Assembly: GCF_002929825.1 (NCBI RefSeq)
Contig: NZ_PJJN01000032.1
Location: 62,001 to 126,000, forward strand
Source of the DNA: Cryobacterium sp. Y29
Lineage (GTDB): Bacteria; Actinomycetota; Actinomycetes; Actinomycetales; Microbacteriaceae
Direction: 5' to 3'
DNA length: 64,000 nucleotides
Part shown: piece by piece, positions 21,966 to 35,386 of the stretch
Position numbering within the stretch: position 1 is the stretch's first letter
Layout of the letters: every line of letters begins with the position of its first letter
Made by a program: the position numbers and the translations under genes
Notes under the pieces: model-generated
What the model was told of the DNA's origin: nothing
Databases searched by the model: none
What the model saw: only the letters and a program-made list of their open reading frames with translations

Positions 21966-23471
21966 CTAGATCATGGTCAGCACCCGGGCCGGGTCGGCGA
22001 GGATGGCGCCGATGTCGGCCAGAAAGCGCGAACCCTGCTCGCCGTCGACCAGTCGGTGGTCGAACGACACGCTGAGGGTGAGCACTTGGCGCAGGGCGAC
22101 CTGCCCGCGATACTCCCACGGCCGCGAGCGGATGGCGCCTATCGCGAGGATCGCCGCCTCCCCCGGATTGAGGATAGGGGTGCCGGCGTCGATACCGAAC
22201 ACTCCGATATTGGTGATGGTGATCGTGCCGCCGGCAAGCGCCGCCGGGGTGGTGGTACCGGCCCGGGCGGACATCGTGAGCTCGGCGAGCGCCGCAGCGA
22301 GGCCGCGGAGGTCGAGCCGTTCAGCGTCGACGATGTTCGGCACGAGTAGTCCGCGCGGGGTTGCGGCAGCGACGCCGAGGTTCACGTGGTGGAACTGCAC
22401 GATTTCGCCGGCGGGCTCATCCCACCGCGTGTTCACCGACGGCGTGCGGCCCACGGCCAGGCAGAGCGCCTTGGCCACCACAGCGAGAATACCGATGCCC
22501 GCGTCGGCGAACTGCCGATCGGCGCGGAGCGAAGCGAGCAGTTCGACAGTCGGCGTGACGTCGATGGTGAGAAACTCGGTGACATGTGGCGCGGTGAACG
22601 CGCTCTGCACCATGGCGGCCGCCGTGAGTTTGCGCAGGCTCCTGATCGGAGAACGGGTCTCGCCCAGGTGGTCACCGCTTCTGGCCGGCCGGGCAGCCGT
22701 CGCAGCGGGTGGCACGGCCCCGGGCAGGTCGGGGGTCGGCACTGACTCGGTGGTACGGGCGCGAACGTCATCACGCGTGATCAGGCCGTCCTTTCCGGTG
22801 CCAGTGACCATAGTGAGGTCAATCCCGAGGTCACGAGCCAGGGCGCGCACCGGCGGCGTCGAGCGCGGTCTGTCCTCGGCGGACGCTGCGGCGTGCGGTT
22901 CGACGGGTACCGCGGTGGGTGCTGCCGTGGGCGCTGCGGCGCGCGCTGCGACGGGCGGTGCGACGGGCGCTGCGACGGGCGCTGCGGCGCGCGCTGCGAC
23001 GGATGCTGCGGGCACCGACGCACCGGCTCCCGTGCGGGCACGACGCTGGGGGTGTCCGCCGCGCTCGATGGCGGGGCCGTAGCCGACCAGATTGGCCTCG
23101 CGCTGCTCGGCCGGAGACGCAGCCGGAGCCGCAGACACAGATGCAGCCGGGGACGCAACCGCAGCCGCAGCCGCAGACACAGCCGGGGCCGCAGCATCCG
23201 TTTTTGGCGACGAATCTGTGGGCTCATCGGCGGCGCCGATCTGGAAGGAGACGATGGGTTCGCCGACGTGCACGACTACCCCGGCCGGCTGGTGCAGCTC
23301 GCGCACGACTCCGGCGAACGGGCTGGGCAGTTCGACCACGGCTTTGGCCGTTTCAACGTCGGCGATGTGCTGGTTGAGCGTGACCTCATCGCCCGGCGCC
23401 ACGAGCCAGGCGACGATCTCTGATTCGGTGAGCCCCTCACCGAGGTCGGGCAGCTTGAAGACCTTGATCAT
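21966..23471 (-). CDS. bkdC: Branched-chain 2-oxoacid dehydrogenase E2 (dihydrolipoamide acyltransferase)
   Basis: 501-aa core subunit. Domains in order: lipoyl domain (1-80; VETAKAVVE with lipoyl Lys43), a long Ala/Pro linker (about 85-200), the E1/E3-binding domain (PPVRALARDLGIDLTMVTGTGKDGL in part, about 208-240) and the acyltransferase domain with the catalytic SFDHRLVDG near the C-terminus. Its start overlaps the bkdB stop by four bases. The linker DNA is internally repetitive. Only one lipoyl domain is present. E3 is not encoded in the window. The complex decarboxylates ketoacids from Leu, Ile and Val. Confidence 0.94.
   Translation of the reverse strand: MIKVFKLPDLGEGLTESEIVAWLVAPGDEVTLNQHIADVETAKAVVELPSPFAGVVRELHQPAGVVVHVGEPIVSFQIGAADEPTDSSPKTDAAAPAVSAAAAAVASPAASVSAAPAASPAEQREANLVGYGPAIERGGHPQRRARTGAGASVPAASVAARAAAPVAAPVAPPVAARAAAPTAAPTAVPVEPHAAASAEDRPRSTPPVRALARDLGIDLTMVTGTGKDGLITRDDVRARTTESVPTPDLPGAVPPAATAARPARSGDHLGETRSPIRSLRKLTAAAMVQSAFTAPHVTEFLTIDVTPTVELLASLRADRQFADAGIGILAVVAKALCLAVGRTPSVNTRWDEPAGEIVQFHHVNLGVAAATPRGLLVPNIVDAERLDLRGLAAALAELTMSARAGTTTPAALAGGTITITNIGVFGIDAGTPILNPGEAAILAIGAIRSRPWEYRGQVALRQVLTLSVSFDHRLVDGEQGSRFLADIGAILADPARVLTMI
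22918..23195 (-). repeat. Repetitive Ala/Pro-linker DNA inside bkdC
   Basis: Degenerate GC-rich repeats, about 15 bp around GCTGCGACGGGC (22930-23005) and GCAGCCG-type repeats (23100-23195), encode the flexible interdomain linker of E2. Length variation between strains is likely. Confidence 0.6.
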
Positions 23472-24520
23472 CGTCGCCCCATGACCCGGTCGACACCGTC
23501 GAGAATGCGGTCGAGATCGGGCAGGTGGTGGCTTTCCAGCTTGGCCGGCGGGTACGGCACGTCGAAGCCGGTGACCCGCACCGGCGCGGATTCCAGAAAG
23601 CTGAAGCAGCGTTCGGTGATGGTCGCGATGATCTCTCCGCCGAGACCGCCCGACTGCGCCGCCTCGTGGGTCACAACCAGTCGCCCGGTTTTACGAACGG
23701 ATGCCTCCACCACCGCATAATCCACCGGTGACAGTGAGCGCAGGTCGATGACCTCGATCGACACGCCCTCGTCGGCGGCGGCGAGCGCCGCGTCCCGTGC
23801 GGTCGCTACGAGCGCCCCGTAGGTGAGGAGTGTGACATCCGTTCCGGGGCGCACGATGACGGCCCGCTCCATCGGAAGCCCGAGCTCTGGCACGACCTCG
23901 CCCTTCACGTGGTAGCGGCGCTTGGGCTCGAAGTAGAGCACCGGGTCGTCGCTCGCGATGGCCTGCCGAATAAGACTGTAGGCATCCTGAGCGTTGGAAA
24001 CGGCGATCACTCGCAGGCCGGAGGTGTGGGTGAAGTACGCCTCCGGTGATTCGGAGTGGTGTTCGGCCGCTCCGATTCCGCCGCCGAACGGTACCCGGAT
24101 AGTGATCGGCATGCGCACGGCGCCCTGGGTGCGGTAGTGGAATTTGGCCACCTGGCTGACGATCTGGTCGAAGCCGGGAAAGATGAAGCCGTCGAACTGA
24201 ATCTCACAGACGGGGCGGTAGCCGCGATAGGCCAAGCCAACGGCGGTGCCGATGATCGCGGATTCGGCGAGCGGGGTGTCGATGACCCGGCGAGCTCCGA
24301 ACTGGGCGAGCAGGTCGCTCGTCACCCGAAAGACTCCGCCGAGGGCTCCGATATCCTCGCCGAGCAGCACCACCTTGGGGTCATCGAGCATGGCTTGGCG
24401 CAGGCCCTCGTTGATGGCCTTGCCCATGGTGAGGGTCTTGGTCTCGCTGAGCGGCGTGGGTTGCGGCGCATTGAGGCCGGGAACCGTCGACACGATTGCC
24501 GGGGTCATCAGGGTAGTCAT
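23468..24520 (-). CDS. bkdB: Branched-chain 2-oxoacid dehydrogenase E1 beta subunit
   Basis: 350-aa transketolase-like beta subunit that pairs with BkdA. Conserved features are MGKAINEGLRQAMLDDPKVVLLGEDIG in outline, GVFRVTSDLL, DTPLAESAIIGTAVGLA, EIQFDGFIFPGFDQIVSQ and the C-terminal PYPPAKLESHHLPD. The start has AAAGG upstream and lies 5 bp after the bkdA stop. It follows bkdA and overlaps bkdC, so the three form one operon. The HHSESPEAYF region is characteristic of branched-chain and pyruvate E1 beta proteins. Confidence 0.94.
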   Translation of the reverse strand: MTTLMTPAIVSTVPGLNAPQPTPLSETKTLTMGKAINEGLRQAMLDDPKVVLLGEDIGALGGVFRVTSDLLAQFGARRVIDTPLAESAIIGTAVGLAYRGYRPVCEIQFDGFIFPGFDQIVSQVAKFHYRTQGAVRMPITIRVPFGGGIGAAEHHSESPEAYFTHTSGLRVIAVSNAQDAYSLIRQAIASDDPVLYFEPKRRYHVKGEVVPELGLPMERAVIVRPGTDVTLLTYGALVATARDAALAAADEGVSIEVIDLRSLSPVDYAVVEASVRKTGRLVVTHEAAQSGGLGGEIIATITERCFSFLESAPVRVTGFDVPYPPAKLESHHLPDLDRILDGVDRVMGRR

Positions 24521-24525
24521 GGTCG

Positions 24526-25638
24526 TCAGGCCTTTCGGTTCTGTTCGGCACTATCGTGTTCCGTGCCGAAGCTTCTGAGATACCCGGCGTAGTCGGCGCG
24601 CTGGCGCTCGAGGGTGGCGTTGGGGGTGGCGTAGACGTGATCGAACACGCTCAGCGGTTCGGGGTCTGGCATGCCGATGCAGCCCGCGCGTAGTTCGGCG
24701 GCTGCGGCATCGGCCAGCGCCGCAGTGGCCGCCTCGACCTCGGGCGTGATTTGACCGAGGCTGTTCAGCAGCCGGTGCAGACGCAGCACGGGGTCGCGCG
24801 TCTTCCACTCGGCCAATTCCGCCGGGTCTCGGTAGCGGGTGGGGTCATCCGCTGTGGTGTGCGGTCCCATGCGGTAGGTGACCGCTTCGATGAAGGTGGG
24901 GCCGCCGCCGGTGCGGGCCCGGTCGAGGGCCATGCGGGTTGCTGCCATGACTGCGATCACGTCGTTTCCATCGATGCGCAGGCTGGGGATGCCGAACCCC
25001 GGCGCACGATCGGCGATATTGCGGTGCGCCTGCACGCCGACCGGCTCGGAAATAGCCCACTGGTTGTTCTGGCAGAAGAAAACCACCGGGGCCTGGAAGC
25101 TCGCCGCGAAAACCATGGCCTCGTTCACGTCGCCCTGGCTCGTGGCACCATCGCCGAAGTAGGTGATGGCGACGGAATCGACGTCGTCGCGCTGGGCACC
25201 GAGCGCCCAGCCGGTGGCGTGCAGGGTTTGCGCGCCGATAATGATGGCCGGTGTAGCCATGTTGACCGCGTACGGGTCCCAGCCGGACTGGGCGTTGCCG
25301 CGCCAGACCTTGACGATGTCGGTGAGGTTCACGCCACGGCAGTAGGCGACAGCGTTCTCTCGGTAGCTGGGAAAGATGAAGTCGTCGTGGCGCAGGGCGC
25401 GGGCCGAGCCGACCTGGGCGGCTTCCTGGCCGAGCAGCGGAGGCCACAGGCCGAGTTCGCCCTGGCGTTGAAGGGCGGTTGCTTCGGTGTCGATACGACG
25501 CACCACGACCATGTCCCGGTACAGCGCCAGGAGGGCCGTTCCATCGAGGTCTTCAACCCACGGGTCGAAGTCGCCGCGGGGTTTCCGCTCGCCGTCAATC
25601 GCGAGAAGCTGCACGAGCTGGGGTGAGAAATCAATCAT
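24526..25638 (-). CDS. bkdA: Branched-chain 2-oxoacid dehydrogenase E1 alpha subunit
   Basis: 370-aa thiamine-diphosphate subunit. The TPP motif is GDGATSQGDVNEAMVFAASF followed by CQNNQWAIS; the N-terminal RDMVVVRRIDTEATALQRQGEL and PSYRENAVAY are typical of E1 alpha. PHTTADDPTRYR matches the phosphorylation-loop region that orders the active site in homologues. It leads bkdABC and is divergent from an Lrp-family gene 131 bp away, the usual control arrangement for bkd operons. Confidence 0.95.
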   Translation of the reverse strand: MIDFSPQLVQLLAIDGERKPRGDFDPWVEDLDGTALLALYRDMVVVRRIDTEATALQRQGELGLWPPLLGQEAAQVGSARALRHDDFIFPSYRENAVAYCRGVNLTDIVKVWRGNAQSGWDPYAVNMATPAIIIGAQTLHATGWALGAQRDDVDSVAITYFGDGATSQGDVNEAMVFAASFQAPVVFFCQNNQWAISEPVGVQAHRNIADRAPGFGIPSLRIDGNDVIAVMAATRMALDRARTGGGPTFIEAVTYRMGPHTTADDPTRYRDPAELAEWKTRDPVLRLHRLLNSLGQITPEVEAATAALADAAAAELRAGCIGMPDPEPLSVFDHVYATPNATLERQRADYAGYLRSFGTEHDSAEQNRKA

Positions 25639-25769
25639 GGGGCGCTCCGAGCGTCATTGCTAAAGTTGACGTGAGCCTATGTCGACCCGACAGAGAGCAC
25701 AACCACTGTCAAAAAAAGTGTGCAGAGTGCCCTATTCAGGCGCGCCAGAGCGTGTTAATGTCTTGCACT

Positions 25770-26234
25770 ATGTACAGCCTTGACAAGACCGACACCAAGC
25801 TCCTCCAAGCGCTCTCCGCCGACCCGCGTAGTACCTTCGTTGCGCTCGCCGACACGCTGGGACTCTCCCGCAATACCGTGCAGGCCCGCATGAAGCGATT
25901 AGAAGACTCTGGCGCCTTTCTCGGCTTCGATCGCCGCATCAATCCAGCCGCCCTCGGCTACCCGCTGACCGCGTTCATCGAGGTGCACGTGCAGCAGAAA
26001 CGGCTTGCGCAGATCGTGATCGACCTTGCGCTGATCCCTGAAATCGTGCAGGCTCACGGCATGAGCGGACCGGCCGACCTCCTCGTTCGGGTGGTCTGCA
26101 CGGATGCCGCCGACCTGTTTCGCATCGACGGAACGATCCTCGCCTGCGACGGCGTGGAGCGCACGGAGACATCGCTCGCGATGGGAGAGGTTATCCCGTA
26201 TCGCCTGACACCGTTGCTCGACCGCCGGGGATAG
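25770..26234 (+). CDS. Lrp/AsnC family transcriptional regulator
   Basis: 154-aa leucine-responsive-type regulator. The winged HTH at about 1-60 begins SLDKTDTKLLQALSADPR, with recognition region LADTLGLSRNTVQARMKRLE; the C-terminal RAM ligand domain follows (ALGYPLTAFIEVHVQ, VQAHGMSGPADLLVRVV). ATG 25770 is chosen where homology begins; the frame extends back to 25479 over bkdA but that part is antisense noise. Divergence from bkdA suggests it regulates branched-chain ketoacid dehydrogenase in response to a branched-chain amino acid. Confidence 0.92.
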   Translation: MYSLDKTDTKLLQALSADPRSTFVALADTLGLSRNTVQARMKRLEDSGAFLGFDRRINPAALGYPLTAFIEVHVQQKRLAQIVIDLALIPEIVQAHGMSGPADLLVRVVCTDAADLFRIDGTILACDGVERTETSLAMGEVIPYRLTPLLDRRG

Positions 26235-26427: not shown

Positions 26428-26913
26428 ATGAGTTTCCTGCGATTGGCCACTCTTATTCGGCACGGCGCACGCATTGCCGAACCGGCACCGACTACCCCAC
26501 CGCTGTTTGCCGGGGCTGAAGCCTTTGGTGGCAGCGTGCAGGTGCGTTTCATCAATGCTGGTGGCTGCAACGATTGTGCTCTTGAAGTGGCCGCCGCGTT
26601 CGGCCCCGTCTACGACGTGGAACGCTACGGCGTTCGACTGGTGCCCTCGCCGCGGCACGCCGACGTGCTGCTCATCGTCGGCAGCGTGACTCGCAATATG
26701 GCCCAGCCCCTGCTGCGCACCATCGAGGCCACCCCCACGCCCCGGTTCGTGATCGCGGTCGGTGACTGCGCCCTACACGGCGGCGCCTTCCGCGACGGTT
26801 ACGGCATCATCGGGCCCGTTTCCGATTTCGTACACGTGGATATCGAGGTGCCCGGCAGCCCGCCAGAACCGACCGATATTGTGCGAGCCTTGCGCCGAAT
26901 GACCGGCCGATGA
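26428..26913 (+). CDS. NuoB/hydrogenase small subunit-like protein of an Ehr-type complex
   Basis: 161-aa protein of the NuoB/HycG family that should hold the [4Fe-4S] cluster nearest the large subunit. The cysteines Cys47 and Cys50 (GGCNDCALE) and Cys113 (GDCALHGG) align with three cluster ligands. The fourth, normally in a GCPP motif, is Ser144 (VPGSPPEP, codon 26857-26859). The cluster may be absent, three-ligated, or coordinated by serine. It is first of six overlapping genes and matches mycobacterial Rv0082 by position. The ribosome-binding site is weak. Confidence 0.88.
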   Translation: MSFLRLATLIRHGARIAEPAPTTPPLFAGAEAFGGSVQVRFINAGGCNDCALEVAAAFGPVYDVERYGVRLVPSPRHADVLLIVGSVTRNMAQPLLRTIEATPTPRFVIAVGDCALHGGAFRDGYGIIGPVSDFVHVDIEVPGSPPEPTDIVRALRRMTGR

Positions 26914-28922
26914 GCGGCATCGGTGCAGGATTGCTCCTGCAACTTGGCCTCGGCGCGCTGGCCGTGCTGACCGCCCTGACGGCAGCACCGTCTCTGCGGT
27001 CGCGAGCGGTCGGCACGCTCTGCACCCTCATCGCGGTGACCGGCTTTCTGACCGGCCTTGGGGCCATGCTCGGCGCCACCGGCGGCCTGCGCATTTTCAT
27101 TGTCCTGCCCATAGACCCGCTGTTACTGGCCCCCGATCGTCTCGGCGGCCTGTTCATGCTCATCGTCTCGGGTGTAGGCGTTCTCGTATCGCTCTACTCG
27201 ATGAGTTCCACCCGTGGACCCGACGCGAGCCGCACAGCGTGGGTCGCCATGCCGATGTTCCTGGTGGGCATGCAACTGGTGCCCGCCGCGACGGATTCGG
27301 TCTCGTTTCTGCTGGCCTTGGAAATCATGACCCTCGGCTCCACCGTGCTATTGCTGGCCGACCATGCCGGCCGGGCAACGGTCGCTTCGGCCGGTATCTG
27401 GTATTCGGCGATGTCGCAGCTGAGCTTCTTCTTCATCCTCGCCGGCTTCGCCGTGCTCGCCGCCGCCTCGGGCGGAACGAGCTTCACCAACCTGCAGGCG
27501 ATTGAACCTGTGCCCGCGAACGTAGCCTTCGTGCTGCTTCTGCTCGGCTTCGGCGGCAAGGCCGAACTGGTGCCGCTGCACGTGTGGGTGCCCCGGGTGC
27601 TCCCCGAAGCGCCCAGCCACGTTTCGGCCGCGATGAGCGGTGCCATGGTCAAAATCGGCGTTTACGGCGGCCTGCTGGTCTCTGTGCGACTCCTGCCCGA
27701 CGGCCCCGCCTGGTGGGGTATCGCGATCATGGTGGTCGGCGGCGCATCCGCTCTCTACGGTATTCTGCAGGCCTCCGTGTCAAGCGACCTCAAAGTACTG
27801 CTGGCCTACTCGACAACGGAAAACATGGGTCTGGTCTTTCTCGCACTCGGCGCGAGCATGCTGCTGCGCGGTTACGACGCGCAAGCGGCAGCGGATGCCG
27901 CGCTCGTGGCCGCCCTGCTCCTCGCCGTCAGCCATGCCGCGTTCAAATCGACGTTGTTCCTCGGCGCCGGCGCCATCATCCACGCTACCGGCGAACGCAA
28001 CCTCGACCGGCTCGGCGGGCTTGGCGCCCGCATGCCCGTCACTGCCGCCGCGTTCGGCATCGCCAGCCTCGGCGCTGCTGCGATTCCCATCACGAGCGGT
28101 TTCGTCGCCGAGTGGATGCTGCTGCAGTCGCTCATTCACGGCGGTCGCCTTGACGGAGCGGTCGTCTCGGTCGCGGCATCCGTTGCCATGCCCCTCGCTG
28201 TCGCTGTGATTGCCCTCACCGCAGGCCTCGCCCTGCTGACCTTCGTCAAGGCCTACGGCATCGCCTTCCTGGCCCGACCGCGCAGCGCTGAAGCAGCGGA
28301 GGCCCACGAGGTACCGCCGCTCATGCGACTCTCCCTTGTCCTCGGCGCCCTCTTCGTACTCGCCCTGGGGCTTCTCCCCGGCCCGATTGCCGCGCTCGTC
28401 GCGCACTCCGTCAGTGCAAACCCGAGCGCCGCCGTGCAGTCCGTCGGTCTCGGCGGCGTCTCGCTGCCGGGTATCGGGGCGGTGCTCGACCCGATCATGC
28501 TGGTCGTGCTCTCGGTCCCGGTGGCCATTCCGGTGATCGTCTCGATCATCGTGTCGGCCCGTCGGTATCCACATCGCACGGTCGCGCTGCCCTGGGGCGG
28601 CGGCGGCTCCCGGGCGAGGCCGCGCATGCAGTACACCGCGACCTCCTACGCCGAGCCGCTCGTGCGAGTCTTCGACGACGTGCTCAAACCGTCGCGCGAC
28701 GTGCAGGTCACCCACGTGGCCGAGTCTCGATATTTGGTGGAACGGGTACGGGTGGAACAACGAGTATCGGATGTCTTTGAAACCCGGCTGTATCGACCGG
28801 TACTCACCCTGTTCCAACGCTACGGAATCGTCGTGCGCCACATCGCCAACGGCAGCATCCACCGCTACCTGTCCTATTCTTTCGTTGCTCTTTTGATCGT
28901 GCTGATCGTGGTCTCGCTATGA
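26910..28922 (+). CDS. HyfB/HycC-like antiporter-type membrane subunit
   Basis: 670-aa multi-spanning protein of the NuoL/M/N, Mrp antiporter and HycC family. Key charged membrane residues are visible: Glu in FLLALEIMTLGS, Lys in GFGGKAELVPLHVWVP and Lys in HAAFKSTLFLGAG, as needed for ion translocation in relatives. A long hydrophilic C-terminal segment (about 560-640) precedes a last membrane helix. It overlaps the gene before and the gene after by four bases each. Position equals mycobacterial Rv0083. Pumped ion unknown. Confidence 0.92.
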   Translation: MSGIGAGLLLQLGLGALAVLTALTAAPSLRSRAVGTLCTLIAVTGFLTGLGAMLGATGGLRIFIVLPIDPLLLAPDRLGGLFMLIVSGVGVLVSLYSMSSTRGPDASRTAWVAMPMFLVGMQLVPAATDSVSFLLALEIMTLGSTVLLLADHAGRATVASAGIWYSAMSQLSFFFILAGFAVLAAASGGTSFTNLQAIEPVPANVAFVLLLLGFGGKAELVPLHVWVPRVLPEAPSHVSAAMSGAMVKIGVYGGLLVSVRLLPDGPAWWGIAIMVVGGASALYGILQASVSSDLKVLLAYSTTENMGLVFLALGASMLLRGYDAQAAADAALVAALLLAVSHAAFKSTLFLGAGAIIHATGERNLDRLGGLGARMPVTAAAFGIASLGAAAIPITSGFVAEWMLLQSLIHGGRLDGAVVSVAASVAMPLAVAVIALTAGLALLTFVKAYGIAFLARPRSAEAAEAHEVPPLMRLSLVLGALFVLALGLLPGPIAALVAHSVSANPSAAVQSVGLGGVSLPGIGAVLDPIMLVVLSVPVAIPVIVSIIVSARRYPHRTVALPWGGGGSRARPRMQYTATSYAEPLVRVFDDVLKPSRDVQVTHVAESRYLVERVRVEQRVSDVFETRLYRPVLTLFQRYGIVVRHIANGSIHRYLSYSFVALLIVLIVVSL

Positions 28923-29860
28923 ACGCCATCATCATCGCCTTCGTGCAGGTCGTCCTGTTCATCTTCCTCGCCCCGGTACTGATCGGGGTGATCCGCCAGG
29001 TGCGGGCCACGATCGAAGGCCGAGCCGGAGCCGGAATCTGGCAGCCGTGGCGCGACGTGCGCAAACTACTGGCAAAGAACCCGGTGCGAGCCACCGACAG
29101 CAGCTGGATGCTGAGGGCAGGCCCGGTCGCGCTGGTCGTGTCCAGCCTGCTGCTGTGCGTGCTGCTGCCGCTGGTGGGCACCATTCCCTTCGCCCTGGTT
29201 CCCAGCGACCTGTTCGTCATCGTTTCCGTCATGTTGATCGGCGTCGTGGCCCTCGCGCTCGTCGGCCTGGACGGCGGAACAGCCTTCGGCGGCATGGGCT
29301 CCAGTCGGCACATGACAGTCGCGGCGCTCGTGGAGCCAACCTTGCTGCTCTCCATCTACGCATTTTCGATCCCAGCCGGAACCAGCACCCTGTCGGTCAT
29401 CGTTGAAACCCGACTGCTCTCCCCCGAGGTGATCATCTCGCCGGTCAGCGTGCTGGCCCTCGTCGCCCTGTCGATCGCCATCATGGCCGAGACCGCCCGA
29501 CTTCCCATTGACAATCCGGGCACCCACCTTGAGGTGACCATGCTGCACGAGGCGATGATCCTGGAAGCGAGCGGGCGCGACCTGGCCTGGCTCGAAGTCG
29601 GCTCCTGGCTGAAGCTGGCCGCCCTGCTCGGTCTGGTCAGCAACCTGGCCGTGCCGTGGGGCGTCCTGACCGATTTCAGCGCTCTCGGCCTGCTCATCGG
29701 TGTCGTGAGCATCACCGTGAAGGTACTCGTGCTCGGTGTGGTGCTGAGTGTCGGCGAGATCTTCCTGGCCAAGGTGCGTCTGTTCCAGGTGCCGGAGCTG
29801 CTCGCCGGCTCGTTCGCCCTCGCTTTCCTCGCCGTGACCGCCTCCTACCTGGTCGCCTGA
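28919..29860 (+). CDS. HycD/NuoH-like membrane anchor subunit
   Basis: 313-aa membrane protein of the NuoH/HyfC/HycD family, which links the soluble arm to the antiporter subunits. The characteristic loop is ETARLPIDNPGTHLEVTMLHEAMILEASG (recognised in pieces ETARLPIDNPGTHLE and TMLHEAM), with its conserved acidic residues intact. N-terminal residues 20-40 carry the cytoplasmic basic loop (RQVRATIEGRAGAG). Overlaps the upstream gene by four bases. Equivalent to mycobacterial Rv0084 by order. Confidence 0.93.
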   Translation: MNAIIIAFVQVVLFIFLAPVLIGVIRQVRATIEGRAGAGIWQPWRDVRKLLAKNPVRATDSSWMLRAGPVALVVSSLLLCVLLPLVGTIPFALVPSDLFVIVSVMLIGVVALALVGLDGGTAFGGMGSSRHMTVAALVEPTLLLSIYAFSIPAGTSTLSVIVETRLLSPEVIISPVSVLALVALSIAIMAETARLPIDNPGTHLEVTMLHEAMILEASGRDLAWLEVGSWLKLAALLGLVSNLAVPWGVLTDFSALGLLIGVVSITVKVLVLGVVLSVGEIFLAKVRLFQVPELLAGSFALAFLAVTASYLVA

Positions 29861-29869
29861 GGAGCATCC

Positions 29870-30529
29870 GTGTTTGAGAACATCTACCCCCAACTGATCG
29901 GCCTGTGCGCCGGCGCCCTGCTGCTGACGAGCGCGCTCATGGTTTGGCGACACTCCTTGCTCGCATCGATTCGACTACTCGCCCTGCAAGGCATCGCTCT
30001 CGCCGCTCTCGTGGCGGTGATTGGGATCGCCGAGGGCGAGCCTGAGCTGGTGCTCGTGTCGCTCCTCATCCTCTCGGTCAAGGGCATCGGCCTTCCGTGG
30101 GTGCTCGCCTACCAATCCAAGGCATCAATAAAACAAATTCAGGAATCGCCCCGGCTCAACCCGACCGCTGCGCTCTTGACGGTCACCCTGTTGACCATCC
30201 TCAGCTATATCGTCGTCAGTCGTGTCTTCGGTCTCGGCGACAGCAGCACCGGTCATGCCGCCCCGATCGGCCTCGCCATGGTGCTCATCGGATTTCTGTT
30301 GCTGATCAGCCGGCGCCGTGCTCGATCGCAGCTCATCGGTTTTCTCCTGCTCGACAACGGCATCGCCACGATTACGTTTCTCACCAGCGGCGGCGTGCCG
30401 ATTCTGCTCGAATTCGCGTTCTCCCTCGACGTTTTGCTGGTGGTGCTTATTCTGCATGTATTCGCGAGCCGCATGCGCACCAAGTTCGGCGGCACGGCCG
30501 TCGATCAGCTCAGGGAGTTGCACGATTGA
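29870..30529 (+). CDS. HyfE/HycP-like membrane subunit
   Basis: 219-aa hydrophobic protein of the HyfE family (NuoK-related), with about six or seven predicted membrane spans. Segments such as ELVLVSLLILSVKGIGLPW and IGFLLLDNGIATITFLTSGGVP fit HyfE/HycP. It starts with GTG at 29870 after GAGGAG, nine bases from the previous stop. It corresponds to Rv0085 in mycobacteria. Its role in relatives is structural, between the NuoH-like and antiporter-like subunits. Confidence 0.88.
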   Translation: MFENIYPQLIGLCAGALLLTSALMVWRHSLLASIRLLALQGIALAALVAVIGIAEGEPELVLVSLLILSVKGIGLPWVLAYQSKASIKQIQESPRLNPTAALLTVTLLTILSYIVVSRVFGLGDSSTGHAAPIGLAMVLIGFLLLISRRRARSQLIGFLLLDNGIATITFLTSGGVPILLEFAFSLDVLLVVLILHVFASRMRTKFGGTAVDQLRELHD

Positions 30530-31977
30530 TATCTTTTATACTGTGGATTCCCCTGGTCGGACCGCTCGCCCTTGCCGGGTTCAGCCTGCTGCCGGGCACC
30601 TTCGCGCTCCGCCGTTTCGTCGGCGTCGCCGCGTCGAGCGCTGTCCTGATCGCCGGCCTGCTGCTGGTTAGCGCTGTGCTGAACGGTGCCGTGCCCGAAA
30701 CCGGCGGCGGCATGCTGCGCGCCGACGCCCTCTCGGCCTACATGATCAGCGTCGTCGGAGCGGTTGGCCTCATTGCAACCTGGGGCGGGCTCAGCAGCGC
30801 CGCATCCAGCCGCACGAAAGTTGCTGCCAGCTACGAGGCCCTCATCGCCCTGTTCCTGGCGGCTATGTCCCTCGCCGTTCTCGCCGACAGCATCGGCCTG
30901 ATGTGGGCCGCCGTCGAGGCGACTACCATCGCCACCGCCTTCCTCGTCGGTCATCACCGAACCGGTCGCTCCCTCGAGGCGGCCTGGAAGTACGTCATCC
31001 TCGGTTCGGTCGGCGTGGCCATCGCGCTGTTGGGCATCGGCTTCATCTACGCCGCGTCCGTCGGCACCGACACCCCGACGCTGTCCTGGCTGCTGCTCAG
31101 CCAGTCAAACCTCGGCCTCGACCCGGCACTCATCACCGCCGGCGGCGCTCTCGCGGTGCTGGGTTTCGCGACCAAGGCCGGCCTTGCTCCGATGCACAGC
31201 TGGCTGCCGGATGCCCACAGCCAGGCGCCGGCGCCGGTCTCCGGCCTCATGTCTGGAGTGCTACTCTCGGTCGCTCTCTACGCCATCCTGCGCATCCAGT
31301 CGATCACCAATCTCGTGATCGGCCCGGAGTTTCTGCGCATCATGCTCAGCGTCGGCGGCCTGCTCTCGCTCCTCGTAGCCGCGTCGCTGCTCATCCGCCA
31401 ACGCGACTACAAGCGGATGCTCGCCTACTCCAGCATCGAACACATGGGTCTCATGGCGATAGGTGTCGCCATCGGACCGGCCGCGCTGCCCTCGGTACTG
31501 CTGTACATTCTGGGCCACGGCCTGATCAAGGCGACCCTGTTCGTGATCTCCGGGCGCATCCTCCAAGTCGAGGGCACCCCGGTGATCTCGGACGTACGCG
31601 CCCTGCTGGTGCGACGGCCCGGCCTCGCCATACCGTGGCTCATCGCCATGGCCGCCATCGTCGGTTTTCCGCCGTTCAGCATCTTCTTCTCCGAAATCGG
31701 CATCATCATGGCCGGCTGGTCGGTGGGCCTCGGCGGCGTCGTCGCAGCCGCCCTCGTACTGCTGCTCGTGATCTTCGCCGCGTTCACCCGACTGACCGTT
31801 CAGATGACCATCGGCGCTCCCCCGGATGGTGTTGCGTTCACTCCCGACTACTCGGCCCACGGGCCACGCCTGCCGATCATTCTGGCCCTGGCGACGACGG
31901 CCACGGTCGCGTTCGTCGCCGAACCGGTCGGCACTCTTCTGTTGCAGGCCACAGCCGTTCTGGGAGGTACCAACTGA
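30526..31977 (+). CDS. HyfF/HycQ-like antiporter-type membrane subunit
   Basis: 483-aa second antiporter-like subunit. Conserved features: Glu in MWAAVEATTIATA, Lys in LGFATKAGLAPMHSWLPDAH, Lys in YKRMLAYSSIEHMGL and GHGLIKATLFVISG. I place the start at a TTG at 30526, overlapping the preceding TGA (TTGA) and eight bases after AGGGAG; the longer open frame back to 30097 is antisense-like noise. It corresponds to Rv0086. Together with the 670-aa subunit it gives the complex two potential ion channels. Confidence 0.9.
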   Translation: MISFILWIPLVGPLALAGFSLLPGTFALRRFVGVAASSAVLIAGLLLVSAVLNGAVPETGGGMLRADALSAYMISVVGAVGLIATWGGLSSAASSRTKVAASYEALIALFLAAMSLAVLADSIGLMWAAVEATTIATAFLVGHHRTGRSLEAAWKYVILGSVGVAIALLGIGFIYAASVGTDTPTLSWLLLSQSNLGLDPALITAGGALAVLGFATKAGLAPMHSWLPDAHSQAPAPVSGLMSGVLLSVALYAILRIQSITNLVIGPEFLRIMLSVGGLLSLLVAASLLIRQRDYKRMLAYSSIEHMGLMAIGVAIGPAALPSVLLYILGHGLIKATLFVISGRILQVEGTPVISDVRALLVRRPGLAIPWLIAMAAIVGFPPFSIFFSEIGIIMAGWSVGLGGVVAAALVLLLVIFAAFTRLTVQMTIGAPPDGVAFTPDYSAHGPRLPIILALATTATVAFVAEPVGTLLLQATAVLGGTN

Positions 31978-33506
31978 TGCGCGATGAGCGAACGCCGCAA
32001 GACCTGGCCGCCGATGACCTGGCTGCTGGTGGAACTGAACTGCGATACCTTAACCGTTCCCAACTGCCGAGCGCTGCCAGCGCACTGCTGGATGCCGGTA
32101 GCCGGCTGGCGCTCGTCGCCTGCCAGGAGGACGACGACGACTTTCGCATCGTGTATTCCTTCGTCGGAGTCACCCCGTCGCTGCGCGCAGACCTCTCGGT
32201 CAGTGTGCCGCAAAACGACGCCTGGATTCCCAGCCTCGCCGAAATATCCTTGTCAGCGGGCAACTTCGAACGCGAAATACGCGACCTGTACGGTATCGTT
32301 CCCCGCAACCACCCGCAGCCCCACCGTCTGGTGCGCCACGGCCACTGGCCGCGCGGCTGGTACCCGATGCTGCGCGCCAATGCCGTCGTACCGGAGTTCG
32401 AGCCCGACGTTGAGTCGTTTCCGTTCGTGCCGGTGGAAGGCCCCGGCGTCTACGAAATCGCGGTCGGCCCGATCCACGCCGGCATCATCGAGCCCGGTCA
32501 CTTTCGGTTCTCGGTCGTGGGTGAAACCATCGTGCGTATGGAAGCCCGCCAGTGGTACCTGCATCGCGGTGTCGAGAAAGTGTTCGAGGGCAAGACCGCT
32601 GCCGAGGGCGTGCTTTTGGCCGAACAGATCAGCGGTGACACCGCCGTCGGTCACTCCCTCGCTTTTGTCATGGCTGTCGAGCAGGCAGGCGGTATCGAGG
32701 TCTCGGAGCCGGACCGGCTACTGCGTGCCCTGCTACTGGAGCTCGAACGCCTCTACAACCATGTGACCGACCTCGGCTCGCTCGCCAACGACGTGGGCTT
32801 CGGCATCATCGACGCGCACGCGCAGGGCCTGCGTGAGCAACTGATGCGCATCAACAAGTCGGTCACCGGGCATCGTCTGCTGCGCGGCGCTCTCAGCGTC
32901 GGCGGCACGCGCGTGACCGCTCTCCCCGCTGCCGCCGAGCTCGCCCAAGTGAGCGCGGCCGTGGCCGAACTGGTCGGCATCACTCTCGGCCATGCCATCG
33001 TGCGTGGTCGCTTCACCGGAACAGCCCGGTTGTCCCGGGCACAGGCCCTCACGATTGGAACGCTCGGCTACGTCGCTCGCGCGTCGGGTATCGCTTCCGA
33101 TGCGCGCTTGGAGCATCCGTTCGTCAACCTCGGCGAAGTCTTCCACGTCGTCACCGAGGAGGGTGGCGATGTCCTCGCGCGGTACAACGTGCGCGCCCGT
33201 GAGGTGGAGGTCTCCACCGCCCTCGCCGTGGATCTGCTGCGGCGATTGCACGGCCACACCGGAACAACGTCGATCGTGAATCCGACGTCGGCCGGCACCG
33301 GGATGGGCCTGATCGAGGCGTGGCGCGGAACCGCCACCCATCGGGTCGAACTCGCCGCAAACGGCACTCTCGCCCGGGTGAAAATCGTCGACCCGTCGTT
33401 CTTCAACTGGCCCGCCGTACCGGACGCCCTGTCGGAGACGATCGTTCCTGACTTTCCGCTGGCCAACAAGAGCTTCAACCTCTCCTACGCCGGAAACGAC
33501 CTGTAG
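31977..33506 (+). CDS. HycE-like large subunit (NuoC-NuoD fusion) without Ni-binding cysteines
   Basis: 509-aa fusion. Residues about 1-135 are NuoC-like (NFEREIRDLYGIVPRNHPQPHR) and about 145-509 NuoD/hydrogenase-large-subunit-like. In [NiFe] enzymes the first ligand motif is ICGIC; here it is ISGDT, with Ser219 and Thr222 in place of the cysteines. The C-terminal DPCxxC is DPSFFN, with Ser474 and Asn477. It cannot bind a NiFe centre in the known way. It starts one base inside the previous stop, after GGGAGGT. Equivalent to Rv0087 by order. The substrate is unknown; quinone or a redox partner is possible. Confidence 0.93.
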   Translation: MRDERTPQDLAADDLAAGGTELRYLNRSQLPSAASALLDAGSRLALVACQEDDDDFRIVYSFVGVTPSLRADLSVSVPQNDAWIPSLAEISLSAGNFEREIRDLYGIVPRNHPQPHRLVRHGHWPRGWYPMLRANAVVPEFEPDVESFPFVPVEGPGVYEIAVGPIHAGIIEPGHFRFSVVGETIVRMEARQWYLHRGVEKVFEGKTAAEGVLLAEQISGDTAVGHSLAFVMAVEQAGGIEVSEPDRLLRALLLELERLYNHVTDLGSLANDVGFGIIDAHAQGLREQLMRINKSVTGHRLLRGALSVGGTRVTALPAAAELAQVSAAVAELVGITLGHAIVRGRFTGTARLSRAQALTIGTLGYVARASGIASDARLEHPFVNLGEVFHVVTEEGGDVLARYNVRAREVEVSTALAVDLLRRLHGHTGTTSIVNPTSAGTGMGLIEAWRGTATHRVELAANGTLARVKIVDPSFFNWPAVPDALSETIVPDFPLANKSFNLSYAGNDL

Positions 33507-33579
33507 GCCGGCCCTACGTGATGCTCCTCTAGTTGTCAATTGGTGTTTTGGGTTTCTTTTTGCTCATGGAGCCAGTCCC

Positions 33580-33933
33580 TCAGAGTAAGCCCGGCCCCAA
33601 CAGGATGATCGCCACGAGAAGTGTCGCGAGGGCCGCCATTATCGCGATTATCCGCTGACCCGATTGCAGGAGGAAGAAACAGGCTGCGGCCGGTACCAGG
33701 ATTCCTGCTACAGCTCCGATGACAAAAAGGGCGATGTAGTCCGCTCGCGGATAATCCGGATCACTGGATGACCCAAAGTCGATGAACTCCAGCCGAATGG
33801 ACACAAGACATCCGATGGTGACCAAGATGCCCACCACAGTGACAATGACGCAGGCGACCACGACCACAGTCGCTATCAAGGGCGACCGCGGCTTCTTGTC
33901 GGCAGAAGTCACCGTTTGGTTATCGAGTCGCAT
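33580..33933 (-). CDS. Small hypothetical membrane protein
   Basis: 117 aa from the ATG at 33933 (an earlier ATG at 33975 is possible). A charged N-terminus is followed by two or three hydrophobic segments: LIATVVVVACVIVTVVGILV, ALFVIGAVAGILVPAAACFF and IIAIMAALATLLVAIILLGPG. It resembles generic actinobacterial small membrane proteins and I do not recognise a family. It overlaps the end of the PKD-like gene by 25 bases in another frame. No clear ribosome-binding site; codon use is less GC-biased than neighbouring genes. Confidence 0.55.
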   Translation of the reverse strand: MRLDNQTVTSADKKPRSPLIATVVVVACVIVTVVGILVTIGCLVSIRLEFIDFGSSSDPDYPRADYIALFVIGAVAGILVPAAACFFLLQSGQRIIAIMAALATLLVAIILLGPGLL

Positions 33934-34470
33934 GCAGAAATCGGACGTCCACCGCTGAGCTTCCCCGTCATACACAACTGGGTAGCGCCACGCATCAGAC
34001 CTAGATCACTCGACTTCACATGTATTACTTGATCGAGGAGGCCATCGCCATTGACGTCTTCTTCACGCGCACTAGTCTCCCTCGCCGGGGCACCGCTTGG
34101 GCCCAGCCGAAGCGTCGACGGAGCCACATCCGTTGCGTCAAAAGTGGCGGACGACAGCAAAGCGACCGGGGTGATCGTCCTCTCAGAACTGGTCAGAGGC
34201 ACAGTGATGCTGGAGCCCTGCAGAGCCGGATCTGTATCGGCGGTCGAAATGTACCAGTCATAACTGACGATGCTCCCATCGGCGTCCGTCGACGCAGAAG
34301 CGTCAAGAATGAGGGTGTCACCCTCGACTTTGGGATTAATGATGGCCGTCGGCACCAGGTTCGGCAGGCACAGCTTCCACACGGAAGCTCCCGGAACCAA
34401 CGGGCACAACGGGCACAACGCTGATGCTCGTTGCGACACTCACAAAAAGTCGCCATCGACTAATATTCAT
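33909..34470 (-). pseudogene. Secreted PKD-like protein with apparent frameshift
   Basis: A frame starting at ATG 34470, preceded by GGAAGGGG, encodes a signal-peptide-like start (MNISRWRLFVSVATS). The rest of the homologous-looking protein continues in a different frame (stop 33909): PTAIINPKVEGDTLILDASAS, a PKD-type segment DADGSIVSYDWY, and DVNGDGLLDQV, which looks like a calcium-binding repeat. The shift must lie between about 34380 and 34440, where GGGCACAAC is repeated in tandem. It could be a real frameshift, phase variation or a sequencing error. Stated as pseudogene with that caution. Confidence 0.5.
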
Positions 34471-34472
34471 GT

Positions 34473-34760
34473 CTATCCCCTTCCACCGACATGGGTAAGC
34501 GCATCATCTTCACTTACCGCGAACCATTGGGAGGGTAACGGCTCTGAGAACTCGGCGACAAGCGTTCCGGCCCAATTGGGGGCATCGCAGGAGCAAGAGG
34601 GTATTGGGGCCATCAACGCGTTCGGCGGCGTGAAGCAGTCCTGCTCCGGTCGTGAGATGCGTCCGATCGGTTCGCCAACAGCTTCACGCTCCTGCGACTT
34701 TAGTCGAGACATGCTCCCGCTGACCCATGTTCCAGATGGAGGGATCGAGCAACAAACCAT
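34473..34760 (-). CDS. Hypothetical small protein, weakly supported
   Basis: 95 aa from ATG 34760, with AGAGGA about ten bases upstream; its stop overlaps the ribosome-binding site of the PKD-like gene. It has five cysteines, three of them clustered (PSCSCDAPNWAGTL and QDCFTPP) and the segment EPLPSQWFAVSEDD. No family recognised. Support is only the ribosome-binding site and tight spacing to the next gene; it could be non-coding. Confidence 0.3.
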   Translation of the reverse strand: MVCCSIPPSGTWVSGSMSRLKSQEREAVGEPIGRISRPEQDCFTPPNALMAPIPSCSCDAPNWAGTLVAEFSEPLPSQWFAVSEDDALTHVGGRG

Positions 34761-35050
34761 CAGCCGGTCCTCTGCTCGTCTATAGCCCGGGCGCTGAGTG
34801 TCACCTCGCACATTCGCAGTCCCTCGTCGGGGACGCGACACCCAAGAAGCCATGGACGCGACGGCTAGACTTGATCTGTCTCAGGCTCACGAGTTTGGGT
34901 CAACTGGCCGAGGGTGCCGAGGGCGTGCTTGGCGGCAAGGAACGTCTGCGCGTCGACGGTCCTAGACTGCAATTCGATCTGCAACGTCGTTGGCCGCCAT
35001 ACAGGGCTCCAGTTCGGGCCCGCGTGAGGGGGCTGGACCGCGGCGACGCG
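34761..35050. other. Region without a supportable gene
   Basis: 290 bp downstream of the ArsR gene. Open frames on both strands look like noise: no ribosome-binding sites, arginine/serine-rich translations. I see no clear hairpin or repeat. It may contain eroded sequence. Confidence 0.4.
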
Positions 35051-35386
35051 CTATTCCGTTTCGAGGTGGCGGAGCAGAGCGTGCGAGTCCGCCAGGTTGG
35101 CCAGCACCATGCGCTTGGCCGCAGCCAGCAACTCAATCGCACTCGCATCTTTCAGGGCATAGAAAATGGAGTTTCCCTCGCGGCGCGTTGCGACCACGCC
35201 GGCACGACGCAAAACGCCGAGCTGCTGCGACAGGTTGGATAGCTCGCAACCGAGCGTCTCGGCTAGACTACCCACTGAGCGTTCACCGGCAACGAGCTGT
35301 TCCAGAACCTGCACGCGCAATGGATGTCCCAGCGACTTGAACAAGTCGGACTTTAATTGGGCGACGGTTAGACCAGAACTCAGCAC
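35051..35386 (-). CDS. ArsR-family winged-helix regulator (Rv0081-like)
   Basis: 111-aa repressor. The winged HTH is LGHPLRVQVLEQLVAGERSVGSLAETLGC followed by ELSNLSQQLGVLRRAGVVATRREGNSIFYALKD (read in segments). Cys56 (LGCELSNLSQ) sits at the start of the recognition helix, where some ArsR proteins place metal-binding cysteines, but no second cysteine is present, so a CxC metal site is absent. Mycobacterial Rv0081, the ArsR regulator next to the hycDPQE-like locus, has the same context, so control of the upstream Ehr-like operon is likely (inference). Confidence 0.9.
   Translation of the reverse strand: MLSSGLTVAQLKSDLFKSLGHPLRVQVLEQLVAGERSVGSLAETLGCELSNLSQQLGVLRRAGVVATRREGNSIFYALKDASAIELLAAAKRMVLANLADSHALLRHLETE

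Follow-up and report, generated by a model that had tools for sequence, protein, structure and literature searches.

The operon and its genes

This analysis concerns a six-gene operon at positions 26428-33506 of a 64,000-nucleotide stretch of DNA from the cold-loving bacterium Cryobacterium sp. Y29 (contig NZ_PJJN01000032.1, positions 62,001 to 126,000 of the forward strand), the whole of which is called the window here. To judge from the residues it encodes, the operon is a member of the energy-converting-hydrogenase-related (Ehr) complexes with a modified cluster site, and marks one stage in a graded loss of ligands. An earlier reading of the same letters (the original prediction) had described it as a complex I/hydrogenase-like operon lacking its NiFe site and one iron-sulfur ligand, and had assigned it to Ehr. 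The genes are as follows.

26428..26913, + strand: small subunit, NuoB/HycG-like, EhrS-type, 161 amino acids (PF01058; best fold match 7z0s_G)
26910..28922, + strand: HyfB-like antiporter-type membrane subunit, 670 amino acids (PF00361)
28919..29860, + strand: NuoH/HycD/HyfC-like membrane anchor, 313 amino acids (PF00146)
29870..30529, + strand: HyfE-like membrane subunit, 219 amino acids (NCBIfam 'hydrogenase 4 membrane subunit', below cut-off)
30526..31977, + strand: HyfF-like antiporter-type membrane subunit, 483 amino acids, TTG start (PF00361)
31977..33506, + strand: large subunit, NuoC-NuoD fusion, EhrL-type, 509 amino acids (PF00329 and PF00346)

All six genes are intact, with junctions of -4, -4, +9, -4 and -1 bases, and coordinates, Pfam and NCBIfam agree with the predicted set of six tightly packed genes of named families. 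The names returned are NuoB-, hydrogenase-4 subunit B-, NuoH-, HyfE-, hydrogenase-4 subunit F- and NuoC-NuoD-like, the HyfE-like subunit having no Pfam match; because NCBIfam cut-offs are unreached, the proteins are to be taken as relatives of the Escherichia coli subunits and not as those subunits themselves. The host genome measures 3.66 Mb, and its sole 49 kDa-type (PF00346) match is the large-subunit gene of the operon, for which the closest public relatives are Cryobacterium strains.

Close comparisons were made across the window and the best 80 of 314 loci, giving 81 rows in which close relatives are over-represented. All six genes pass an open-frame length test in 76 of the 80 loci; three of the others are cut by contig ends (L065, L075, L083) and L086 has one short frame. 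The test wrongly passed two loci, L052 and L056. The former, on the chromosome of C. breve, has frame breaks in its S, B, H and F genes, and the latter has one near the end of its large-subunit gene, either of which may be sequencing error or local decay. Across nine genome pairs and the six genes, the ratio of nonsynonymous to synonymous substitution (dN/dS) lies between 0.035 and 0.242. The six-gene operon is genuine and undamaged, and evolves under purifying selection.

The former NiFe site of the large subunit

Three short segments of the large subunit bear on its lost metal site.

32628..32642, + strand: ISGDT, residues 218-222, in the place of the first NiFe CxxC, with ligand positions S219 and T222 (alignment)
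33390..33407, + strand: DPSFFN, residues 472-477, a conserved block opposite AATYAN of HycE and not the DPCxxC site (alignment, profile match)
33465..33503, + strand: C-terminal NKSFNLSYAGNDL, residues 497-509, the true DPCxxC place, with S503 and G506 and no maturation tail (alignment, profile match)

The proposal that ISGDT (Ser219, Thr222) occupies the first NiFe CxxC is borne out by its alignment with VCGIC of HycE and HyfG. The companion proposal, that DPSFFN (Ser474, Asn477) stands for DPCxxC, fails: DPSFFNWP falls opposite the RAATYANWP / RTPSFAH block in an alignment with HycE, HyfG and NuoCD, and it is the C-terminal FNLSYAGNDL that aligns with LDPCYSCTDR, so that DPCYSC lies on NLSYAG and the second NiFe site is SYAG. 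The register is the same in the profile match to 7z0s_E, the solved large subunit of formate hydrogenlyase, and at this C-terminal place distant actinobacterial operons have CYACxDR or CYSCxDR. The four NiFe ligand positions are thus S219, T222, S503 and G506, none of them cysteine; the predicted absence of ligands stands, with the second-site residues corrected to Ser503 and Gly506. The concern that the ligands might prove to be shifted elsewhere in the chain applies to this second site only, which had been misplaced yet is also without cysteines. The protein stops just after the aligned DPCxxC site and does not have the 32 extra residues of HycE and HyfG.

The same state extends through the close set. 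Cysteine occurs at 219 or 222 in 0/81 large subunits and at 503 or 506 in none (79 of the 81 cover both in frame), so the intact motifs that might have been expected in close species, had this been a decayed copy, are not found there; both CxxC motifs are kept in nine distant operons described below. In the large subunit, conservation is among the highest around the former metal site: H167, H175, R177, G220, D221 and H226 of the pocket are present in every one of the 81 rows, T222 in 80, and S503, Y504, G506, N507 and D508 in 79, the remaining two being one gap and one frame-broken row. Position 219 is less uniform (Ser in 67 rows, Thr in 10, Ala in 4), as is E172, aligned with E21 of the membrane-bound hydrogenase MBH (E in 62, D in 12, G in 7).

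HypD was found in 0/57 genomes of the genus, 54 of them at least 90% complete (the control search detected it in 4 of 14 named genomes, one of them that of E. coli). Because all four NiFe ligand positions are without cysteine and HypD is absent from these genomes, it is very unlikely, to judge from sequence, that the complex is a hydrogenase. The large subunit without NiFe ligands, the absence of HypD from the genus and the set of subunits together uphold the Ehr assignment, and the accompanying remark that the redox substrate of Ehr is undefined agrees with the literature in the portions available.

Proximal-cluster ligands of the small subunit

Alignment with HycG and HyfI sets the proximal-cluster ligand positions at C47, C50, C114 and 144, the first three of which are kept in the window.

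26566..26577, + strand: codons C47-N48-D49-C50, hydrogenase-type CxxC of the proximal cluster (alignment with HyfI/HycG)
26767..26769, + strand: codon C114, the third cluster ligand (alignment)
26857..26859, + strand: codon S144, replacing the fourth cluster cysteine (GCPP to GSPP, residues 143-146; alignment)

Ser144 of GSPP faces the GCPP cysteine of HycG and HyfI, as had been predicted. How far it is conserved in relatives, a check proposed at the outset, depends on the family. Of the 78 rows with a small subunit, 45 have Cys at position 144, 22 have Ser, 8 Asn and 3 Thr; the cysteine is present in 45/45 rows outside the Microbacteriaceae and absent in 33/33 inside (one of them frame-shifted). 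The four-cysteine proximal cluster, the usual state outside this family, is therefore not that of the window. The 33 family rows comprise 21 with Cys-Cys-Cys-Ser, 8 with Asn, 2 with Thr, a Lacisediminihabitans row (L060) with Gly-Cys-Ala-Ser, and the frame-broken L052, whose residues 114 and 144 are not to be counted because both come from the frame break; also counted here is L061, titled as a metagenome-assembled genome of Acidobacteria, a probable mislabel. C47, C50 and C114 are all kept in 31 of the 33, the exceptions being L060 and L052.

L060 thus has one of its four cluster cysteines left, and the same is true of L114, another genome of the family, with Ala-Cys-Ala-Ser (L115 is cut before the small subunit). 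C50 is present in every small subunit read. No compensating cysteine appears in the small subunit where C144 is lost, among columns with at least five cysteines; C118 is lost together with it (0/33 vs 45/45). Cysteines are enriched in the C144-less clade at HyfB-like 38 and 258, NuoH-like 80, HyfE-like 13 and large-subunit 49 and 454, enrichments that are not attributable to the C144 state because clade and state are inseparable. Position 219 of the large subunit is likewise other than Ser solely where C144 is lost (14/33 vs 0/45), a pattern compatible with a redox site that is weakening, though it comes from a single clade. A literature search that covered few subscription journals returned no report of small-subunit cluster ligand loss in Ehr.

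Distant operons and independent ligand loss

Wider sampling brought in more divergent operons. A phylum sample gave a hit in 20 of 396 genomes, the window's own included, and 18 of the other 19 were retrieved; a class sample around one genome of the phylum sample gave 13 of 249, from which 11 of 14 places were added, the other three being already in the set. A look for copies of the Lacisediminihabitans type found the operon in 1/13 and 2/3 genomes of two genera, none of them new.

The most altered small subunits belong to one operon type of family f43, in which the four ligand positions read Thr-Cys-Asp-Asp in 5/5 readable cases (L129, L130, L140, L142, L143; in a sixth, L141, the sequence breaks off ahead of the small-subunit gene). 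Their large subunits have SGDS or SGDT, plus SYSGNDL where the end is present. The conserved Thr-Cys-Asp-Asp set might bind a metal ion in place of a cluster. A second f43 type (L144-L146) has Asn, Cys and Asn at 144, and L131-L133 have Ser there, their third ligand not being alignable with certainty. At the other extreme, both NiFe sites still have CxxC in nine operons (L135-L139, L147-L150), and L134 retains three of the four cysteines. The nine are without a C-terminal tail and have an ArsR-like gene in 9/9 loci; they are possible tail-less hydrogenases or intermediates.

On a large-subunit tree of 63 rows, thinned, built by a quick method and with long branches flagged, at least four changes at 144 and at least two at 114 are required, and the L060 plus L114 clade and the Thr-Cys-Asp-Asp clade each have SH-aLRT support of 100. 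As the alignments and tree indicate, cluster ligands beyond position 144 have been lost twice independently, and the single iron-sulfur ligand loss in the window marks the beginning of a wider trend.

The subunits concerned remain constrained. The small subunits of L060 and L114, with one cluster cysteine each, give a dN/dS of 0.142, and four pairs within the Thr-Cys-Asp-Asp clade give 0.065-0.212 over the six genes and 0.065-0.202 for the small subunit, values that are rough for the divergent pairs because synonymous distances are near or above 1.

The membrane arm

The predicted retention of the membrane Glu and Lys residues is confirmed. At least 78 of 80 rows retain E138, K217, K295, H342, K346 and E401 of the HyfB-like subunit, and at least 79 of 81 retain E131, K217, K296, H331 and K335 of the HyfF-like subunit. 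These eleven residues are unchanged in 10/10 further genomes, among them L060, L114, four with Thr-Cys-Asp-Asp and three with both CxxC sites; in the one-cysteine and Thr-Cys-Asp-Asp operons, then, they are as in the window (6/6 genomes). The NuoH-like subunit retains its acidic set of six, of which D46 and E139 vary in some of the 10 further genomes.

Regulator, neighbourhood and spread

One further gene is linked to the operon.

35051..35386, - strand: ArsR-family regulator, operon-linked across Actinomycetota (neighbourhood comparison)

A homologue is present in 70 of the 80 loci and adjoins the operon in 62, lying upstream, co-directed and within 1.1 kb in 32, and downstream, inverted and no more than 2.2 kb away in 30 Cryobacterium loci (a script identified 29; the thirtieth is L056, whose gene end is hidden by the frame break); in the other 8 the best match is elsewhere or on the other strand. 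The gene also adjoins many distant operons. When gene neighbours were clustered, it was the sole cluster common to many Cryobacterium and many other loci, besides the operon genes and apparent antisense frames. The conserved linkage marks the regulator at 35051-35386 as belonging to the operon system.

The same clustering, in which neighbours were not systematically annotated, yielded no electron-donor gene. HyfA and HyfH are ferredoxin-like electron-transfer subunits; no gene of this type lies in the six-gene operon of the window, HyfH-like genes being found within operons L131-L133 and, on the other strand, near L140. Within the genus, 24 of 36 other genomes have the operon; family-wide, counting the window's own genome, it is present in 12 of 398 genomes and in 4 of 85 genera.

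Some local features may be recorded. In the window 1,544 bases (33507-35050) separate the large-subunit and ArsR genes; among 29 Cryobacterium loci this gap measures 7-163 bases in 24 and 436-2,123 in the other five. In the window it contains an open reading frame on the minus strand (33580-33975), small and membrane-protein-like, with no Pfam match and no match in the 80 loci. Just upstream of the operon, at 21966-26234 on the minus strand, lie 2-oxoacid dehydrogenase genes (E2 by Pfam, E1 beta and alpha by eye) with an Lrp/AsnC-like regulator (by eye), a neighbourhood that among the 81 loci is seen in the Cryobacterium group only.

Comparison with known systems

Papers on Ehr complexes cite work by Marreiros and colleagues from 2013. 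With these complexes the operon shares a group-4-like large subunit without NiFe ligands together with NuoH-, HyfE- and HyfB/NuoL-like membrane subunits in one operon (Ehr complexes in PMC6349859, PMC10284858 and PMC4378227, parts of each; in the excerpt available, the Sulfobacillus Ehr report names nuoH, nuoL, HyfE and HyfB homologues). It differs in that the window's clade has lost one proximal-cluster ligand and two other lineages have lost most. Coupling of a cytoplasmic redox reaction to ion translocation is suspected, not measured, in the relevant portion of PMC6349859.

By profile and fold, for the large and small subunits, the closest solved relatives are E. coli hydrogenase-4 and formate hydrogenlyase (Hyf, Hyc; 7z0s). 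The operon has counterparts of HyfB, C, E, F, G and I, but differs from Hyf in having no NiFe ligands, no counterparts of HyfA, HyfD, HyfH and HyfJ, and no C-terminal tail. The four cysteine ligands, Hyp maturation (HypD) and C-terminal tail of a [NiFe] group 4 hydrogenase are all wanting in the window or genus. Complex I shares NuoB-, NuoC/D-, NuoH- and NuoL/M/N-like parts and lacks both NiFe ligands and a C-terminal tail; within the operon, however, there is no N-module, NuoI, NuoA, NuoJ or NuoK (NuoE/F/G/I were not searched genome-wide), the small subunit has CxxC where complex I has a tandem CC, and the columns for the quinone His and Tyr hold other residues. Unlike an Mrp antiporter, the operon includes NuoB- and NuoC/D-like genes. 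Identities as a hydrogenase, a complex I remnant or a pseudogene were considered and rejected.

The rv0081-rv0087 locus of Mycobacterium tuberculosis, whose genes we presume to match the window's subunits one by one, likewise combines an ArsR regulator with genes for a putative hydrogenase/formate hydrogenlyase; it differs in that the ArsR gene in Cryobacterium is downstream and inverted. According to the part of PMC6901956 consulted, rv0082-rv0087 are regulated by Rv0081 and form a putative [NiFe]-hydrogenase, with an oxidoreductase, HycD, HycP, HycQ and HycE annotated; expression data for the regulator are published, as far as the available text shows.

The membrane-bound sulfane sulfur reductase of Pyrococcus (MBS, 6u8y) shares the loss of the NiFe site. 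Its proximal cluster, described as catalytic in the section consulted (PMC7684303), has three cysteine ligands, an arrangement that may also hold for the three cluster cysteines kept in the window.

Interpretation and rival explanations

The reading preferred here, to which we give an even chance, is that the operon encodes an ion-translocating Ehr complex of the hydrogenase-4/formate-hydrogenlyase branch, with a three-cysteine proximal cluster in the genus. Three cysteines would hold the cluster, either as [3Fe-4S] or as [4Fe-4S] with an open iron as in MBS; that it is still bound in the genus is suggested because three cysteines are retained, as in MBS. The cluster would adjoin a polar pocket in the former place of NiFe, and a soluble electron carrier would probably reduce it directly, since the built-in ferredoxin subunits are missing. 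The pocket might support proton-coupled chemistry of a small oxidant or ligand, or its binding alone, an event that would be relayed through the NuoH-like subunit to the HyfF- and HyfB-like channels and result in movement of H+ or Na+. In relatives with most cluster ligands gone, the electron-transfer part would be losing importance; the loss of nearly all ligands in two other lineages suggests that selection does not everywhere preserve electron transfer via this cluster.

Several observations weigh against this reading. The analysis turned up no substrate, carrier or partner. Since Ser, Asn and Thr alternate at 144, that residue need not be a ligand, and because the usual cluster binding is impossible in L060, L114 and the Thr-Cys-Asp-Asp complexes, a cluster is unnecessary for whatever maintains them. 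The equivalent of MBH E21 is Gly in 7 of the 81 rows. Residues 160-196 and 484-509, part of the pocket, have a pLDDT below 50 in the AlphaFold model, which leaves the pocket unresolved. Unlike the six-gene operon, MBS includes a NuoI-like ferredoxin subunit, and its membrane arm is of the Mrp type. MBS has moreover lost a different cysteine and kept two of its four NiFe-site cysteines (PMC7684303, in the part seen), and at the columns of the quinone-binding His and Tyr of complex I, matched by motif in the alignment, the large subunit has I171 and G220 (the quinone-headgroup residues of NuoD are named in the same portion of PMC7684303).

The alternative that fares best, somewhat unlikely in our judgement, is that no electron transfer takes place and the NuoB/NuoCD-like arm is a structural or ligand-sensing lid on an Mrp-like H+/cation antiporter or gated channel. 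It draws on the single cluster cysteine of L060 and L114 and, independently, the Thr-Cys-Asp-Asp set of all five readable small subunits; on the repeated changes at 144 and 114 required by the tree; on the constraint that persists in these ligand-poor small subunits, however rough the divergent-pair values; on their identical pumping residues; and on the missing electron-input subunit. The departure of position 219 from Ser only where C144 is lost points the same way, but being confined to one clade it is statistically not independent evidence. The window's genus, however, keeps three cysteines, as expected for a bound cluster, and few large-subunit residues are as conserved as those surrounding the former metal site. 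A broader proposal, which we find possible while leaning against it, is that complex-I-like machines can outlive their redox chemistry: after NiFe, Ehr complexes would lose their cluster ligands stepwise, down to one cysteine at least twice independently, while selection on the subunits and the pumping residues persist. The arm would have turned into a lid or sensor of a ligand, without redox function, by which ion flow is driven or gated, and Cryobacterium, with three cysteines, would be halfway.

Next comes an ordinary Ehr complex with a Ser-ligated [4Fe-4S] cluster, from which electrons would pass to an acceptor, quinone or other, in the former NiFe pocket. Other proteins are known in which Ser ligates a cluster in place of Cys, and Cys-Cys-Cys-Ser is the state of 21 of the 33 Microbacteriaceae rows; the occurrence of Asn (8 rows) and Thr (2 rows) in the genus and the unkept quinone columns of complex I make this improbable.

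It is quite improbable, too, that the complex is formate-linked, with a soluble, molybdenum-dependent formate dehydrogenase docked in the manner of formate hydrogenlyase and the large subunit passing electrons to a non-proton acceptor. Formate dehydrogenase-Ehr complexes have been proposed in other lineages (PMC6349859) and Geobacter Ehr subunits are more abundant on formate (PMC7894505), both as stated in the portions available, and the window's own genome has 5 PF00384 matches, some of formate-dehydrogenase size by frame length. Against this, no such gene was noticed beside the operon, the operon has no HyfA/HyfH subunit as a connector, and PF00384, found in 55/57 genomes of the genus, is non-discriminating because more of these genomes have it than have the operon. 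Finally, a decaying or misassembled hydrogenase copy, for which the frame breaks in L052 (S, B, H, F) and L056 (near the end of L) might speak, is highly improbable given intact genes in the window, dN/dS well below 1 in all pairs and motifs conserved across families.

Implications

The means by which electron transfer in complex I is coupled to ion pumping is still one of the main questions in the field, and operons of the kind described here, spread across Actinomycetota with a linked ArsR gene, offer a natural series on one frame: both NiFe CxxC motifs; neither, with a full set of cluster cysteines; three cluster cysteines; and one. What is new, as read from the residues, is the further loss of cluster ligands in L060, L114 and the Thr-Cys-Asp-Asp clade, where the subunits are constrained and the predicted pumping residues kept. 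The label '[NiFe]-hydrogenase', used for the similar M. tuberculosis locus, would not fit the operons examined here. More broadly, the series allows one to ask what the membrane arm does without a redox drive.

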